25,159 nt of DNA from a virus. A program made the position numbers and the translations under genes. The DNA is taken from the IMG/VR virus record IMGVR_UViG_3300009185_000094, positions 1-25,159 of that record; one strand, given 5' to 3'. The notes under the pieces are model-generated. The model saw only the letters and a list, made by a program, of their open reading frames with translations, was not told where the DNA came from and ran no database searches. Positions 1 to 18,644 of this stretch are shown here, piece after piece (the first letter of the stretch is position 1; every line of letters begins with the position of its first letter).

Positions 1-158
1 ATCAGCCGTGGTTCAACATCAAGCCCGTACGCTCGAGCTCTGTTCTCACGGTCCAATTGACGCTGGTAAACCGTGTTTGCTTCGGTGCACAGTTGACACC
101 TGCAGCGATCTTGCACGTATTTCACTCGGGTTCCGTGTTCCCGTTTGCCCGCGGTCAC
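1..158 (-). CDS. Small CRCxxC-motif protein, partial (runs off left edge)
   Basis: Open reading frame on the minus strand that starts at GTG (156-158), three bases after the stop of the preceding gene, and stays open to the window edge. A GAGG sequence lies about 8 bases upstream of the GTG. The visible 52 residues include HGTR, then a tyrosine, then CRCxxC, then a spaced Y-x-R. Almost the same pattern (CGT, Y, CRCxxC, Y-x-R) forms the C-terminal tail of the WhiB protein at 2367-2750. Three clustered cysteines followed by basic residues suggest a small metal-binding, nucleic-acid-associated module, but that is inference. I recognise the pattern as recurrent in actinobacterial and actinophage proteins and know of no assigned function. 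The C-terminus lies outside the window, so length and any fused domain are unknown. Confidence 0.6.
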   Translation of the reverse strand, partial: MTAGKREHGTRVKYVQDRCRCQLCTEANTVYQRQLDRENRARAYGLDVEPRL

Positions 159-413: not shown

Positions 414-848
414 TCAGATGATGTCTTCGATGGTTGCTGCAGGCTTCGAAGCGTCGATCTTCGCTACGAACTGGTGTGCCCCGTTGAACCCGCGTGTCGT
501 CGGTTCAGCATCTTCCTTGCGTTGCATGGTGAGCACCGAACCGGTCAGGTCTTGGCCGGCACCGATCCCAGCTTTCGCCAGAGCGTCTTTGATGGCGGCG
601 ATCATCGCCCACTTGCCTGCGTAGATTCGTGCCTCTTCGCCTGTGGTGAGATCGATGCCGTCGATGACGAGTTCGGGCATGGGTTGGCCGGCCTTGTTGA
701 GTTGTACTTCGCCGGTCTGGAAGTCGCGCTTTGATCGGGTCTGAATGCCGGTGATCTTCAGCTTCGCTTTGTCACCGACTTCTTCGAACTTGATGGCCGG
801 CACGCTGCTGCTTGAGAACAGCACGCTGTCGATGGTTGGTTCTGTCAT
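414..848 (-). CDS. Possible single-stranded-DNA-binding (OB-fold-like) protein
   Basis: A 144-residue protein whose ATG overlaps the stop of the RecB-like nuclease gene (ATGA, 845-848), so it is translationally coupled to it. The N-terminus is followed by alternating beta-strand patterns (AKLKITGIQ, ELVIDGIDL, EARIYAG), then a helix (WAMIAAIKDALAKAG), a further strand (SVLTMQRK) and an acidic C-terminal end (ATIEDII). A beta-barrel-like N-terminal half with an acidic tail is typical of phage single-strand-binding proteins, and pairing with a RecB/Cas4-like nuclease is common in phage recombination or replication modules. There is no diagnostic signature motif. The role is inferred from fold pattern and context. 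Confidence 0.4.
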   Translation of the reverse strand: MTEPTIDSVLFSSSSVPAIKFEEVGDKAKLKITGIQTRSKRDFQTGEVQLNKAGQPMPELVIDGIDLTTGEEARIYAGKWAMIAAIKDALAKAGIGAGQDLTGSVLTMQRKEDAEPTTRGFNGAHQFVAKIDASKPAATIEDII

Positions 849-2356
849 GGTTGCCCGTCCTTTGGGGTCTTGGGTGTCTTGGTTGTGACGATGGCTACGG
901 TGTCGTAGCCGTACACCAGGTGCGTTGCGCCTGTTCTCAGGTCGTCAGCCGTTGAGATTGTTTGGTGTGCTTCGGTGAGGGTCATGGACCCTACCAGTGC
1001 ACCGATGCTGATGTCAGCGTTCCGTGGTTCGTTGCGTGCCTGCCAGATCGCAGCCTCGAGCACCAGATCATCTAGGTACGGTGCGAGTTCGATCAGTGCG
1101 AGCACGATGGCATGTCTGCGTGCTGATGGGATACCACCGGGCCCTGTCAGGTTGATCGGGTAGTTAGCGGCTTTGCAGGCTTTGACAATGCCAGTGAGCC
1201 ACAGTTGTTCTGCAGCTTCCAGCTGATCGATGCGTCGCTTCGCTTCAGCGATCTGGGTGTCATCAACGGTGCCGACATCGTCGGGTGTTGGCCGGCGCTC
1301 AGGTTTGACCTGTACGGCACTTTGTACGGACGTTTGATCGTCAAGTACTGGTGGGAACAGCGCCATCGCTGACCGTTCGACGTTCGACACCAACCGTTCA
1401 ATGATGGTCTGCTGTTCATCGTCATAGGGTTCGCTTTTGCCTAGCCTCGGGATCTCCTCAGGCCACATGTCTGCGATCAGTTGTCCGTGCCCGTCGGCCA
1501 GCAGCTGCTTGACCCGATCGGTGATCCAGGTGCGCCAGTCGGTATGCACCTCAGCAAGCTTCTCAGCTTTGACATGCACCAATGGTTTGATGGCTGTCAT
1601 CGGTTTGTGCTTACGCATCTCACGCACTTCGATGGCGAGCTCGAGGGCCAGCGCACCAACCTCAAGGTCAAGCCAGTGCAGTTCGCAACTGTTGTTATCA
1701 GGGTTCGCATTGATAATGACGCCTGTGGACTTGGAAACTTCCCACATTGGGGTACGTGCATCACCGTCGTAGAACCAGTCTGCGTTCGCGTAGCACGCCA
1801 ACTGGCATGCAAACCCGACACCACCGTATGACACGCTGCCGGTTTTGATGTCAGCAACGAACAGTTCGGTGCCGTCAGTGACAAGCAGATCGAACGTGCC
1901 GGCCACCTTGTGCTGTTCGTTGATCACGAACCGTTCAGCAGAATCAGGCACCGGGCTCAAACCGCACAGTCGCAGCTGCTCATGCACAGCATGCACAAGT
2001 GGCGCAAAGTTCGGCGGTTCGTATGTGTCATCGAACCAGGAGAGTTCGAGCATCTTATGAATGGCGGTGCCGAGCTCACTGCGAACAGTTGACCCGCCAG
2101 CGCGGGCTGCAGCCTCACACAACCGGTTCAAAGCCTGTTTGTCTTCACGGTCAACGTCACACAGTCTGCCGTACAGATCAGATCGGGCAGCTAAACCCAA
2201 CGCCACCATGCGCTTATCCCAGACACGCAAACCGTGCATGTCTTCGATGGCGTCTTTCATGGATGACGGACGATCATAAGTGACCCCGTCAATCACTGGC
2301 TGTCCGTGCCCGTTGCGCCTGATCGGGTCGAAGTCGATATCGATTGTTGCGCCCAT
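845..2356 (-). CDS. RecB/Cas4-like PD-(D/E)XK exonuclease
   Basis: A 503-residue protein. The nuclease core is near the N-terminus: GTAIHKMLE (H100), then GTFDLL (D156), then the central VADIKTG (D169, K171), then the helix QLACYA (Q185, Y189). This is the order of RecB-family PD-(D/E)XK nucleases, in which the H, D and D-x-K residues bind Mg2+ and the Q-x3-Y helix completes the active site. The family degrades DNA ends and takes part in phage recombination or replication. Residues about 290-503 are helical, with a low-complexity linker near 340-370, and I recognise no domain there. The ATG at 2354-2356 has AAAGGA nine bases upstream. It follows WhiB by 10 bases and overlaps the next gene by 4. 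Fold assignment is firm; the precise role is inferred. Confidence 0.8.
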   Translation of the reverse strand: MGATIDIDFDPIRRNGHGQPVIDGVTYDRPSSMKDAIEDMHGLRVWDKRMVALGLAARSDLYGRLCDVDREDKQALNRLCEAAARAGGSTVRSELGTAIHKMLELSWFDDTYEPPNFAPLVHAVHEQLRLCGLSPVPDSAERFVINEQHKVAGTFDLLVTDGTELFVADIKTGSVSYGGVGFACQLACYANADWFYDGDARTPMWEVSKSTGVIINANPDNNSCELHWLDLEVGALALELAIEVREMRKHKPMTAIKPLVHVKAEKLAEVHTDWRTWITDRVKQLLADGHGQLIADMWPEEIPRLGKSEPYDDEQQTIIERLVSNVERSAMALFPPVLDDQTSVQSAVQVKPERRPTPDDVGTVDDTQIAEAKRRIDQLEAAEQLWLTGIVKACKAANYPINLTGPGGIPSARRHAIVLALIELAPYLDDLVLEAAIWQARNEPRNADISIGALVGSMTLTEAHQTISTADDLRTGATHLVYGYDTVAIVTTKTPKTPKDGQP

Positions 2357-2366
2357 GTGTGATCCT

Positions 2367-2750
2367 TTATTCGGTCAGATTGCCAGTATGCGCACCAGGT
2401 GCGACAGTCGTGCGTACTCGAGCACGTCGGGCACGCTGATACTCCAAGAACACCTCACGGCAGACATCGCACCGGCAGCCGAACTGGTAAGACTTCACAG
2501 TTCCGCACCTGGTCCACTGTGCATCGCTGTCAGGGTTCCGTTCGATCCTGCGTCGCACACCATTCGTACCAGCCCAAATGCCAAACCGTTCGTCGTTCTC
2601 ATCGATGTGCTGCCGGCACTGCTGATACACCGGGCATACACCACAGATGGCGACCGCTTCCCGATACGACTTTGTGTCACCCCGATCAGGGTAAAAGAGA
2701 TCCGTCTTGCCTTTGCATGCTGCGTGATCTGCCCATGATCCCACTGCCAT
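2367..2750 (-). CDS. whiB: WhiB-family [4Fe-4S] transcription factor with CRCxxC tail
   Basis: A 127-residue protein. The chosen ATG (2748-2750) shares bases with the TAA of the preceding gene (TAATG). The WhiB cluster ligands are C12, C36, C39 and C45, in the order C-x23-C-x2-C-x5-C, and the GIWAG turn follows near residues 57-61, then a basic NGVRRR. WhiB proteins hold a [4Fe-4S] cluster and bind the principal sigma factor to alter promoter choice; phage versions can interfere with host WhiB regulation. The C-terminal extension is unusual: from about residue 80 it carries CGT, a tyrosine, then CRCxxC and Y-x-R, matching the small gene at the left edge. This extension is not part of the core WhiB fold. 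Strong evidence for an actinobacterial host. Confidence 0.92.
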   Translation of the reverse strand: MAVGSWADHAACKGKTDLFYPDRGDTKSYREAVAICGVCPVYQQCRQHIDENDERFGIWAGTNGVRRRIERNPDSDAQWTRCGTVKSYQFGCRCDVCREVFLEYQRARRARVRTTVAPGAHTGNLTE

Positions 2751-4313: not shown

Positions 4314-6590
4314 CTAGGACACACGACCCCAATAGAGGACGGTCGGTGAACCAAACGAACTGGTCGATGTCGGCAGATCACTTTGGCTTGCAAGGCTGCC
4401 GTTTAACCGTGGTGCCAAAGCCATCACTGTTGTTGTGCCGGTCAGCCCTACAATGTTTCCGGGGGTGGTACCAACACCGATCACAGCAATGGCGTACCTG
4501 TTGCCGGCCACAAGGTCGTAGGTGGCGGGGTAGCCGCCGGTTGTGTCAAACGATCGTGGGTACACGGTGTTGGCAGTGTTGAACGTCGTCGTGGCAGTGC
4601 TGTTTGTTCGTGCTACCAGCGTCGCTGTTGTGCCGTCGAAGGTGTAGAGCCCGAAGCGGCTGAGTGTTAGCCCGGCGCTTACAGTACCGGCGACTGCGTA
4701 ACTGATCTGACTGATCGTCATGTTCGTGGCCGGGGTAAAGAATGAGAAGTACACGGTGCCGGACACGCCAGCAGCAGCGGTAGTGGTCTGGGCGCGTGGC
4801 ACCACATCAAGTGCAGTTGATGACGAGTTCTGCGCGTCACGGTACCGATCGACACTGAGCTTCACGCTGTTTGCTGTGGCAGCGGTCGTGGTTGACGTTG
4901 ACGTTGTCGAGTCGGTCAGCTGCACAACACCGCTAGCTGATGTGCTGGACGCAGTCGCAGCAATCGTCCGGGTCGCTGAATCCCAAGTGACCGGTGCGGT
5001 CGCGCTGATTGAGTTGGTGAGACCCTCAATAGCGGCGATCGGGGACACGCCAGCTAAGGCTTCCCGTGCAGCAAAGTCGCCAAGTGCGACGTGACCAGGG
5101 TTGGATGGGTGCAGGTTGTCAGCAGACCACCCAAATGGATCGCCAGTAGAGCTTGAGTACGAGCCAAACAGGTCGGACCAATCCCAAATAGCGCAGCCGA
5201 GCTCCTCGGCTTTTGCGTACATGGCGGTCACGATCGGTGACCAATACGCATCAGTCTTTGAACCGTTCGTCGGGTTGATCAAGAACGCAAACGATGGCAG
5301 CGTATTTGCCCCACCGTTAGTAGATTGGATGTTTGCAACAAGTGTTGCCATCGCTGTTGCAATGTTTGCCGTTGTTGTGCTGGTTTCGTTAGAGCCAAGA
5401 GCGATCACAACAAGGGACGGGTTCAAGTAGCCGACAGCGGTATTCAGGACTGGTGAGGCTGTTGCATCAGCGATTGTGTAATGGCTGCGCATCATCGCAG
5501 CCCAATCGTTATTGAGCGTTCCGTCGAATGAGTCATTCCAAGTGGCAAAAGCTGACCCGACCTTGCCAGAACACCAGACACGTGTGCCAATGGTTTCGGT
5601 GCCGTCATGGATGAAAGCACCTTCGCAAACAACACTGCCGGTCTTGCCGTCCGACGAGGTCGCTTGAGTGACACGCAAAGTCACGGTGCCACGCGCACCC
5701 CACGCAGCGATAGGGATGGTTTGAGCCACAACAATGTGGCCACCAGCCGGAAGCGATGCGTCATAAGTGTCTTCGGTGCGATCGAACAGCAGAGTGCCAC
5801 CGATGCCGGTGCCTGCATACGCACGAATCCTGATCGCACCATTGTTGTACGGAAACGGAAAGATTTTGACTCGACGGTAGAACACGGTGGCACTGGTGCC
5901 AGTCACCGTCAGTCGCATGTCAGCGCCCGCAGGGATACCCTGGGCGCGACGGCCAAGACCGTAGACCTGTTCTGTTGGTGACCCGGCAGCAGCTGTCCAT
6001 TTCGGGTCAGGTATCAGCCCGTCAAAAGTTGAACAGGGAACGTAAACACCAGTGCGCCCATCAGCGTTTGCGGTTTCAGCAAGCAACGCAGCCAGCCGTC
6101 TGACGTATGTGGTGCCAGCACCCGAAGTGCTTGAGCCGTAACCCTCAGTGATTGAGTCACCGATCACCAGAACATCAGCGGTGCGGCTTGAGGCAGTGCC
6201 AAGCCCGTACAGGTTGCCGTAACGGGCATCAGCGAAGGCTTGCTGCCAGCGGCGCAACGGTTTTGTTGCGGCCTGCCGAGACAGGGTTCGCAGTGAAGTT
6301 GAGTTAGCTGACACGGTCTGTGTGCCCGAGGTGTACACGATCGGGTCGGTGGCGGCTACCACACCGGTCGCACCCGTGTTGCCGGTGTCGCCCTTGTCGC
6401 CCTTCGCGCCAGTGGCACCAGTCGCGCCAGTGGCACCAGTGGCACCTGTTGAGCCTGTGGCCCCCGTGGCACCCTGAGGTCCTGCAACCCCGACCGCGAC
6501 GATCTCAGCTGACGCTTGGGTCAGTTCGATCGGTCGATCATTGCGACGCAACGTCACGTCGGTTTGTGTGATGGTCACATCACGGTTCAC
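4314..6590 (-). CDS. Tail fibre with collagen-like repeat and SGNH/GDSL hydrolase domain
   Basis: A 758-residue protein starting at GTG (6588-6590), which overlaps the upstream stop (GTGA). Residues 1-35 form a short beta-rich head. Residues 37-75 are thirteen G-X-Y triplets, mostly GAT, predicted to form a collagen-like triple helix. An SGNH hydrolase follows: block I VIGDSIT (S146), a glycine- and asparagine-bearing ALGSNE (N401) and the catalytic DNLH (D491, H494). About 200 residues lie between block I and the rest, including a beta-rich insert (about 225-330) that may bind carbohydrate. Residues about 515-758 are beta-rich and Ser/Thr-rich. Such proteins probably bind and deacylate surface polysaccharide during adsorption. 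It is the last gene of the late operon. Catalytic residues are visible; the substrate is unknown. Confidence 0.8.
6366..6482 (-). repeat. Collagen-like G-X-Y coding repeat
   Basis: Thirteen tandem 9-base units encoding Gly-X-Y, with GAT (Gly-Ala-Thr) as the main triplet and a charged AKGDKGD stretch near the end. The near-identical units (plus-strand GGCACCAGT-like) make length variation by slippage likely. In the protein this is the shaft between the fibre head and the hydrolase. Confidence 0.85.
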
Positions 6591-6925
6591 CTGGTCACAT
6601 CCTGGACAACAAACACGGGGCCGGCAAGCAGTGTGGTGACCACACCTGATGCGTTTTCTTGCACGTCGTACACGGCTTGGCCGGCACTTAGGGCTGCGGT
6701 GATGGCGGTGCCCATAGTGCATTGGAAGATCCCGGCGGTGCCGTTCGTGACCGAGCATGTGAACGTGGCAAGCACAGCGGTTGATGCTGCTGTTGCACGA
6801 ATCTGGCTGCTGTAGGTGCGTCCGGTGATGTTCACAGCAACACCCGCATCGTCTTTGACGGTCACGGTTAGTTGTTCGGTGTCACCTGTGCGGATCGTGA
6901 TAGGGAGCTCGGCGGGGCTAGCCAT
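6587..6925 (-). CDS. BppU-N-like baseplate/fibre adaptor
   Basis: A 112-residue protein starting at ATG 6923-6925, overlapping the holin stop by 8 bases; longer upstream starts lie inside the holin gene. Its pattern, an early [15 protein letters not shown], then [11 protein letters not shown], then a mixed strand region and a closing GPVFVVQDV, resembles the N-terminal domain of baseplate upper proteins (BppU_N) found at the head of phage receptor-binding fibres. It directly precedes, and is coupled (GTGA) to, the collagen-SGNH fibre gene, so it may be the adaptor that seats that fibre on the tail. Similarity is by motif only. Confidence 0.55.
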
Positions 6926-16727: not shown

Positions 16728-17291
16728 TCAGATTCTCCAGGCTTGAACGTAAGCGTCAACGATTCGAACAGCACCACGTGATTCAAGGAACTCCGCTACC
16801 CGCCGGCCTTTGCCAGCGTCGGGCAGGTTGTCGTCCACTGCGACGATTGAGCCCGGACGCACCAGGTGCCATGCTGCAGCGATCTCACGCAGGTGATGTT
16901 GTTGTGCTGGCTGAGGGTGTGCAAAGTCAATGTCGAAACTGTCGAGATACAACAGATCCACCGGGGCAGACAGTTTGCGCAGCGTGGTCAGTGAGTCAGC
17001 CGTGACTGCTGTGGTACATGTCAGCCCGAGGTGATCAACTAGTTGTGCGCCGATCGGGTCAATGTCGATGGTGGTGACGTGGCCGGCGAGGGTTCGGGCT
17101 ACCTGATCCCAGACGACCGTTGATTGTCCGTCACCGCACCAGTTGCCTTCTTTGCGAATGCTGCCGGTTTCGACGATGACACAATTTGGGGGCAGCTGGT
17201 TGATGATGGTCCTGAATGGTTCGGATCGTTTGCCGAGCTCAAGCCAGGGGACTTCAATCAGTTCGGCTGTGTCCATTGTTGACCCGTTCAT
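16728..17291 (-). CDS. Class I SAM-dependent methyltransferase
   Basis: A 187-residue protein; starts at ATG 17291 or 17276, both overlapping the glycosyltransferase end. Rossmann-type motif I IVETGSIRKEG, a TTIDIDP acidic end of strand 2, motif DLLYLDSFD (strand 4) and GSIVAVDDN (strand 5) define a class I methyltransferase of the Methyltransf_24-like group. This group often modifies sugars or small O-linked groups. It lies directly downstream of, and overlaps by about 38 bases, a glycosyltransferase gene, so a shared glycan is likely. No DNA-methylase (NPPY or DPPY) motif was seen. Confidence 0.8.
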   Translation of the reverse strand: MNGSTMDTAELIEVPWLELGKRSEPFRTIINQLPPNCVIVETGSIRKEGNWCGDGQSTVVWDQVARTLAGHVTTIDIDPIGAQLVDHLGLTCTTAVTADSLTTLRKLSAPVDLLYLDSFDIDFAHPQPAQQHHLREIAAAWHLVRPGSIVAVDDNLPDAGKGRRVAEFLESRGAVRIVDAYVQAWRI

Positions 17292-18552
17292 CGATGCGGC
17301 TCAGGATCGGTTCCCAGCATTCGGTGAACACCTTGCGGTGTTCGTATTGTTCTGCGTGCTGGCGGGCCTTAGAACGACGCTCAGGGGCCTTAGCGGTGAC
17401 GTATGCATCTTCCAGTTGGTCAACGATGCTGTGCACCAGCGGTGTGCAAAACCATGATGATGACCCGGCATCCCAATACGGTTGCACCGTGGCGAGATAC
17501 CCGAAGTCTGCAACGAGCTCGGGCTGCGCTGAGAAGTCAGACACGATCGACGGAACCCCGCACGCTGCAGCCTCGAGGACCGGAACACCGAACCCTTCAC
17601 CGCGACTGCACAGCAGCTGCACATCGAACGCACCCATGATGGCGGCCAGCACATCAGCTGACAAACCTGCGTAGTAAGCCCACTGGTCAACCCAGATAAC
17701 TCGATCCTCTGGGATACCGCACGCTGTAGCCAACGCTTTGAGATCAATGCCGAGCGAAGCGCCACGTGACTCGGTGTGCATGTACAGCACGACATCTTGA
17801 TGTCGTGACATGAACTCACCCATCGCCAACAGGTTCTCACCGAACGCTTTGCGAATCGGTGCGTGACCTTTGTTTGCGGCGACCATGCCAACAACGAACG
17901 CATCATCAGGAATGTTCAGAATGTCGCGACCGTTTGCACCGTCAACAGTGGCACCTGGCTTGAACGTGTCAGTGTCAACACTGTGCGGTGCGTACTCGGC
18001 TGCGATGCCGGCACGCTCGAGCTGCTCCAAGCCGAACTGTGACATAGCGATCGACATCACCGTGGGACGTTGCGAGAACGCCAAAACTTTCGGTGGTAGC
18101 GGCAGATGATCGACCGGCACCCATGAGGCCACCAGGTCAATGCCATCAATGTTTGCACCGTCATAAACCCAAGTGTCGAACAGGGTTAGGAGAGCTGTTC
18201 GGGCTCCGGTGGTTTCTTGCGCGTGTTTGGTGTGCGCTGTGAGGATGTCGCAGCTGTACGGGTGGTAGCCGTTCGGGAGGACTTCGACGCCTTCCCATGC
18301 GGTGATCCCACCGTAGAGCCCGTAGTTGCTTGAGAACGTGACCGGTCTGCCGGTGGCTTTGATCTGGCGCGTGATGTTCGCGGCTTGGACCCCGTAACCG
18401 GTGCCGGCCCAGGGTGCGTTGCTGTGGACGAGGATTCCGGCTCGAGGATTCTGCACATCTGCGCCAGCACCAACGCTGTTGCTATGTGCGGCGGCAGATC
18501 CGTTGGGATTCCGTTGATCTCGACCAGCATTGCGATTCCTTTTGTTGCCCAT
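17254..18552 (-). CDS. Glycosyltransferase, GT4-like (GT-B fold)
   Basis: A 432-residue protein; ATG at 18550-18552, with GGAGAAAG upstream, chosen over the longer frame from 18639, which runs through the hairpin region. The N-terminal part has VHSNAPWAGTGYGVQAANI and the C-terminal donor-binding lobe holds RGEGFGVPVLEAAACGVP, with the E-x7-E motif at residues 319 and 327, typical of retaining GT4-like enzymes using nucleotide-sugars. A basic, asparagine-rich stretch occupies residues 1-30. Placed between the major capsid protein and the connector, it may glycosylate virion proteins or the host surface. The overlap with the methyltransferase supports co-expression. Confidence 0.85.
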   Translation of the reverse strand: MGNKRNRNAGRDQRNPNGSAAAHSNSVGAGADVQNPRAGILVHSNAPWAGTGYGVQAANITRQIKATGRPVTFSSNYGLYGGITAWEGVEVLPNGYHPYSCDILTAHTKHAQETTGARTALLTLFDTWVYDGANIDGIDLVASWVPVDHLPLPPKVLAFSQRPTVMSIAMSQFGLEQLERAGIAAEYAPHSVDTDTFKPGATVDGANGRDILNIPDDAFVVGMVAANKGHAPIRKAFGENLLAMGEFMSRHQDVVLYMHTESRGASLGIDLKALATACGIPEDRVIWVDQWAYYAGLSADVLAAIMGAFDVQLLCSRGEGFGVPVLEAAACGVPSIVSDFSAQPELVADFGYLATVQPYWDAGSSSWFCTPLVHSIVDQLEDAYVTAKAPERRSKARQHAEQYEHRKVFTECWEPILSRIDERVNNGHSRTD

Positions 18553-18600
18553 GTTCTTTCTCCAGTGTTCCCGTGTTTGCCAGTGGAACTGCCAGGTGGT

Positions 18601-18644
18601 GTGCGTGGGGTGCCGCCCACGGGCAAAGCAGCACCCCAACGCAC
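18601..18644 (-). terminator. Strong hairpin after the major capsid gene
   Basis: Arms 18601-18616 and 18628-18644 pair over 16 base pairs (one G-U pair and one bulged T) with an 11-base loop. It begins 16 bases past the capsid stop codon (18661). No T-tract follows, so it is not a classical intrinsic terminator. It may partly terminate transcription, or stabilise the abundant capsid mRNA and lower expression of the glycosyltransferase/methyltransferase genes downstream. Confidence 0.5.

Follow-up and report, generated by a model that had tools for sequence, protein, structure and literature searches.

The window, by which we mean the whole 25,159-base virus record that was analysed, carries near its left end two minus-strand genes with the same short cysteine module (Table 1). 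The first, at 3-158, is open at the edge and reads MTAGKRE-HGT-RVK-Y-VQDR-CRCQLC-TEANTVYQRQ; the second, at 2367-2750, encodes a WhiB protein with the tail WTR-CGT-VKS-Y-QFG-CRCDVC-REVFLEYQRARRAR. Common to both is the pattern [H/C]-G-T-x3-Y-x(3-4)-C-R-C-x2-C, after which comes a long basic helix. We call this the HGT-CRC module and define it by H or C and a subsequent C-x-C-x2-C, the first ligand being followed by G and the knuckle preceded by Y, all of which both window copies show. The left protein has three cysteines in all, every one of them in the module, together with one of its two histidines.

Table 1. Features of the window and of module proteins at other loci (L numbers); positions refer to the window unless a locus is given
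Feature	Position	Strand	Evidence and details
Left-edge gene, 5' part	1..158	-	whole gene L009:3001-3612, 203 aa
Left-gene module, H8 to A43	30..137	-	profile E=3.9e-13; proposed metal ligands H8, C19, C21, C24; helices 11-16 and (long) 22-43 (AlphaFold)
Early-region protein (context)	414..848	-	PHROG 1911 E=1.2e-6
Exonuclease gene, between both module genes (context)	845..2356	-	PHROG 466 E=1.8e-48
WhiB-family protein, 127 aa, C-terminal HGT-CRC module	2367..2750	-	Pfam Whib E=4.7e-15
WhiB-tail module, residues 82-115	2406..2507	-	profile E=3.8e-11; proposed metal ligands C82, C92, C94, C97; helices 85-89 and 95-115
WhiB core, Cys 12, 36, 39, 45 and GIWAG turn	2547..2735	-	Pfam alignment and residue inventory
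Integrase with in-domain module	L322:568-1917		module residues 313-345 of 450, between GLRWGEL and HDLRHAH motifs
Five tandem module copies (longest array)	L066:725-1399
Four tandem module copies	L349:3-1451

The two window genes

A module profile of 184 sequences, none of them from the window virus, was run on the six-frame translation of the window. It recovered the left-edge gene and the WhiB tail with the E values given in Table 1, the third-ranked match having E=0.035, which rules out a chance motif. The claim of the preliminary description that the two genes share a cysteine module is thus confirmed by an independent profile, and the outcome that would have spoken against it, two segments from unrelated families, did not occur. 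The description had placed the motif within one operon; it is present in both of these genes, but its occurrence is far wider, in a very large family that is not operon-limited.

The leftward extension needed to complete the first gene is supplied by contig L009 (IMGVR_UViG_3300009068_000653), which shares 3,158 identical bp with the window and extends further left. The complete protein consists of the N-terminal module and two Cro/CI-type helix-turn-helix (HTH) domains. It belongs to PHROG 1590 (unknown function; E=8e-18), the match covering residues 16-192 of 203 and thereby spanning module and HTH, and matched no family in Pfam. The relatives that carry a name are annotated as “HTH DNA binding” or “DNA-binding” and come from the Arthrobacter phages Kukla and Nandita and the Brevibacterium phage AGM16. 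The AlphaFold model (mean pLDDT 93.3) gave only weak Foldseek matches in the PDB, many of them Cro/CI-type HTH regulators and none with E<0.001. In a module-blind test, the HTH domain alone was used as query over 198 genomes, resulting in 11 matches: a module at E<0.01 is present in five (the last cysteine being lost in one), two more have an altered module that is recognisable by eye, and four have none. Because five of the 11 carry the module and four show none, it is common yet not obligatory in this HTH family. An HTH search of five single genomes found nothing.

The second gene encodes a member of the WhiB-like (Wbl) family, whose proteins bind a [4Fe-4S] cluster and region 4 of sigma-A. 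Cys 12, 36, 39 and 45 follow the Wbl spacing C-Xn-C-X2-C-X5-C, and the turn GIWAG differs at one position from the Wbl turn G[V/I]WGG. PHROG 1333 covers both core and tail (E=2.6e-16). In Foldseek, the core of the AlphaFold model (mean pLDDT 83.5 for the protein) has the Wbl fold and matches WhiB3, WhiB1 and WhiB structures with a best E of 2.3e-4, among them complexes of WhiB1 and of WhiB3 with sigma-A region 4 and a Streptomyces WhiB complexed with RNA polymerase. Among the window proteins, Pfam returned only Whib and one sub-threshold chance match.

Elsewhere in the window, the product of the gene at 4314-6758 is long and combines a collagen-like stretch (G-A-T-G-A-T) and a segment resembling lipase/SGNH (GDSITEG), by eye probably a tail or fibre protein, and the gene at 17254-18639 encodes a phage-borne glycosyltransferase (PHROG 2170, E=3.4e-24).

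Conservation and predicted fold of the module

In 31 distinct copies from Actinomycetes, the histidine, the glycine and each of the three cysteines are present in 31 of 31, the tyrosine in 30, the arginine in 29 and the threonine in 27. The cysteines are accordingly invariant in this set, and the lack of conserved cysteines that would have spoken against a shared module did not appear. In 97 copies that were unfixed by the DNA pattern used for searching, the first position is H in 91 and C in two of 93, and the three cysteines are found in 95 of 96, 95 of 97 and 96 of 97, respectively; both sets were collected by profile and are therefore biased toward intact copies. The first ligand even changes between H and C in paralogous nucleases of one phage, Pseudomonas phage vB_PF_Y1-MI, where gp30 has HGT and gp34 has CGT. 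Because of this exchange at the first position and the invariance of the ligands we infer zinc binding, and H or C together with CxCxxC plausibly forms a four-ligand zinc site. Over the 18 residues past the last cysteine, the mean net charge is +3.8, compared with +1.6 for random stretches of the same proteins.

Structure prediction for both window modules, proposed in the preliminary description, resulted in one helix-knuckle-helix layout in both proteins: H/C-G-T, a short helix with the tyrosine, then the CRC knuckle, then a long helix whose first turn contains the last cysteine. The two AlphaFold models are not fully independent because the input alignments held module fragments of other proteins. 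Foldseek against BFVD, which contains separately predicted viral proteins, superimposed 35-38 residues at 0.5-1.0 A (ranks 26, 31 and 32; probability 0.99-1.00; E 0.7-1.0, values that are weak for module-only matches because the module is short) on small proteins of phages, among them ReqiPepy6 gp060 and gp061. These two (BFVD D4P7H1 and D4P7H2) are consecutively numbered Rhodococcus phage genes with the module fold in both. A search of the PDB yielded no solved structure containing the module; the only candidate relative there, PqqB with CRCSIC (E=0.39), was taken as chance.

Distribution and partner proteins

Degenerate DNA patterns for the module were used to search viral contigs and bacterial genomes and identified at least 120 stretches in the former and at least 117 in the latter; a Cys-first pattern identified 49 stretches in viral contigs. 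The module profile is positive in 31 of the 198 sampled genomes of Actinomycetes (about 16%), in two of 185 from the class to which an Acinetobacter genome belongs and in two of 100 from that of an Acidimicrobiales genome; in each of the three counts, one positive is the seed genome, picked for having the module. Further records come from Paracoccus, Chloroflexi and Acidobacteria as well as from phages of Erwinia, Pseudomonas and Salmonella. A search of actinophage genomes had been suggested; with the DNA patterns and the profile together, the module is seen across actinobacteria and their phages. With the module consensus, a short query of low sensitivity, tblastn gave weak matches in tape-measure genes of Streptomyces phages.

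To describe the partners, 138 non-redundant module proteins were scanned by Pfam. The 25 commonest families include HNH (13 proteins), WhiB (11), several HTH families, phage (tyrosine) integrase (5), NUMOD1 (3), GIY-YIG (2) and Endonuclease VII (1). The trait that the partners have in common is DNA binding, known or presumed. The position of the module varies with the host protein and can be N-terminal, C-terminal or internal. In WhiB proteins it follows the core, as in the window, or precedes it (L169, L167). In tyrosine integrases of Actinomycetes (L322, L321, L332, L334 and others) and of phages (L020, L073) it sits within the catalytic domain, ahead of the HxxR motif. Tandem arrays have up to five copies (Table 1), a Chloroflexi protein contains a four-copy array, and some proteins consist of little besides the module; L066 and L054 exemplify arrays and such proteins.

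In Pseudomonas phage vB_PF_Y1-MI (L313), Salmonella phage UAB_1 (L311) and Mycobacterium phage Lukilu (L008), the tRNA genes are interspersed with or flanked by genes for HNH nucleases that carry the module C-terminally, a placement as expected of homing endonucleases. Several Actinomycetes genomes (L324, L326, L330, L331, L333 and similar loci) have a small recurrent protein of about 105 aa whose N-terminal half is HTH-like and which ends in the module.

Proposed role and comparison with known systems

Given the module, its conservation, its partners and its predicted fold, all established here, we consider it probable that it is a portable unit that coordinates a single zinc and presents a basic helix to DNA as an accessory contact. 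The metal would be held within 35-40 residues by [H/C]-x(9-10)-C-x-C-x2-C, and the basic helix, starting just ahead of the last cysteine, would contact DNA in proteins that read, cut or recombine it. In the left gene, the module ahead of two HTH domains would give a phage early regulator a longer operator recognition. In the WhiB protein, where it is placed behind the DNA-reaching segment, the module would hold the DNA upstream of the -35 element with WhiB docked on sigma region 4, in the manner of the WhiB7 AT-hook. Zinc as the metal, the DNA contact and this promoter model are what we infer from the sequences and models. More tentatively, and with somewhat greater doubt than confidence, we suggest that the module may constitute a widespread, undescribed zinc-binding DNA-contact domain of actinobacteria and their phages that transcription factors, homing nucleases and site-specific recombinases have in common and that is located within the catalytic domain of a large group of actinobacterial tyrosine integrases, in which case the arrays may read DNA module-wise.

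The zinc-held helix hairpin might instead dock on a common protein partner (RNA polymerase, a clamp or another copy of the module) and so gather DNA enzymes. This would suit WhiB proteins, which work through a sigma factor, and phages in which several copies are possible, neighbouring genes carrying the module in L106 and L125; small zinc knuckles also often serve as protein contacts. Protein docking nevertheless appears unlikely because the hosts have unrelated protein partners and DNA as their common substrate, because the helix is basic, and because the presence of the module in Erwinia, Pseudomonas and Salmonella phages makes a conserved actinobacterial partner improbable.

Less likely still is that the two window products form an operon-specific pair acting on the same promoter or complex, which would be compatible with the reading of DNA by a zinc module. 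Co-occurrence is not above expectation: WhiB is present in seven of the 23 module-bearing phage loci with a module-HTH gene versus 41 of the 145 without (Fisher p=0.81), in a test that is rough as the loci are of unequal length. Nor are the window modules close relatives. When modules are ranked by similarity, the partner stands 152nd and 139th of 229, and for each window module the closest matches come from the same type of protein in other phages, so that an intragenomic duplication of the module was rejected. What a pair does have in its favour are L106 and its relative L125, in which a WhiB-module gene is directly followed by a module-HTH gene, and L108, in which module, HTH and WhiB are united in a single protein of 337 aa. 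A partnership of the two window genes is possible. The protein of L108 (11294-12304) has an extra C-terminal Cys-rich segment (CPEC...CSEEC). Of the shared functions that the preliminary description had considered, namely metal binding, DNA contact and partner recognition, a metal-binding DNA contact would fit best, while a function special to these two genes is not supported by the similarity ranks and the co-occurrence test.

That the module is a purely structural cap, stabilising a terminus or loop of its host and touching neither DNA nor a partner, is very unlikely: N-terminal, C-terminal and internal placements would agree with it, but tandem arrays and the near-module-only proteins have nothing to cap, and unrelated host proteins share the module. 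Least likely of all is a redox or iron-sulfur sensor, in which iron-sulfur would be bound, or disulfides formed, by the CRCxxC cysteines so that WhiB gains a second sensor, since, although the WhiB fusion is to an iron-sulfur protein and its Cys as first ligand brings the extra cysteines to four, the first position is His in most copies including the left gene, and the module is fused to nucleases and recombinases without known redox role.

The preliminary description knew of no role assigned to the motif, and the family collections agree. Neither Pfam nor NCBIfam has a module model, judging by the scans of the 138 proteins, which cover the 25 commonest families, where such a model would rank first. 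In PHROGs, the module is present only inside larger whole-protein families that neither define nor name it: N-terminal in PHROG 1590 and C-terminal in PHROG 1333 and in PHROG 4234 (HNH endonuclease). No description of the motif was found in the open-access literature. A module carried by about one in six sampled Actinomycetes genomes, and present in phage regulators, nucleases and integrases, is thus without a Pfam or NCBIfam model. If it had a name, numerous “hypothetical” phage genes could be linked to DNA binding, a route of DNA access would suggest itself for phage WhiB proteins without AT-hook, and attention would be drawn to the unexplained insertion within the catalytic domain of a frequent type of integrase. 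Modular DNA recognition could naturally be sought in the tandem arrays.

The closest likeness in kind is to the CapR-type, DUF723 and DUF4379 zinc fingers, small mobile fingers that occur in T5orf172 homing endonucleases, in beads-on-a-string repeats and also in a transcription repressor (PMC10448857, which gives DUF4379 also as DUF4397). The window modules do not belong to these families: CapR has the order CxxC...CxC, whereas the window module has [H/C]...CxCxxC, and no Pfam match to the window modules was obtained. The ICP1 homing endonucleases gp28, gp53, gp59 and gp80 did not match the module profile, and in a C-terminal homology test the T4 Mob homing endonucleases MobC and MobD scored below 0 bits. 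NUMOD domains (Pfam) are likewise mobile DNA-contact modules beside HNH or GIY-YIG nucleases, and some proteins have both; in L350, NUMOD1 at 185-208 is separate from the module at 76-111. In contrast to NUMOD, the window module shows a Cys-His signature and is attached to WhiB, HTH regulators and recombinases as well, and the window proteins are without NUMOD match.

For the WhiB protein, the comparison is with WhiB7, whose C-terminal AT-hook is described as the sole DNA-binding motif so far recognised among Wbl proteins and grips DNA upstream of the -35 element while WhiB7 binds the sigma factor (PMC6282962). Both proteins would accordingly have a C-terminal DNA-contact element behind a sigma-binding WhiB core; the AT-hook, however, is a short basic motif, whereas the module of the window WhiB is predicted to be a folded metal module.
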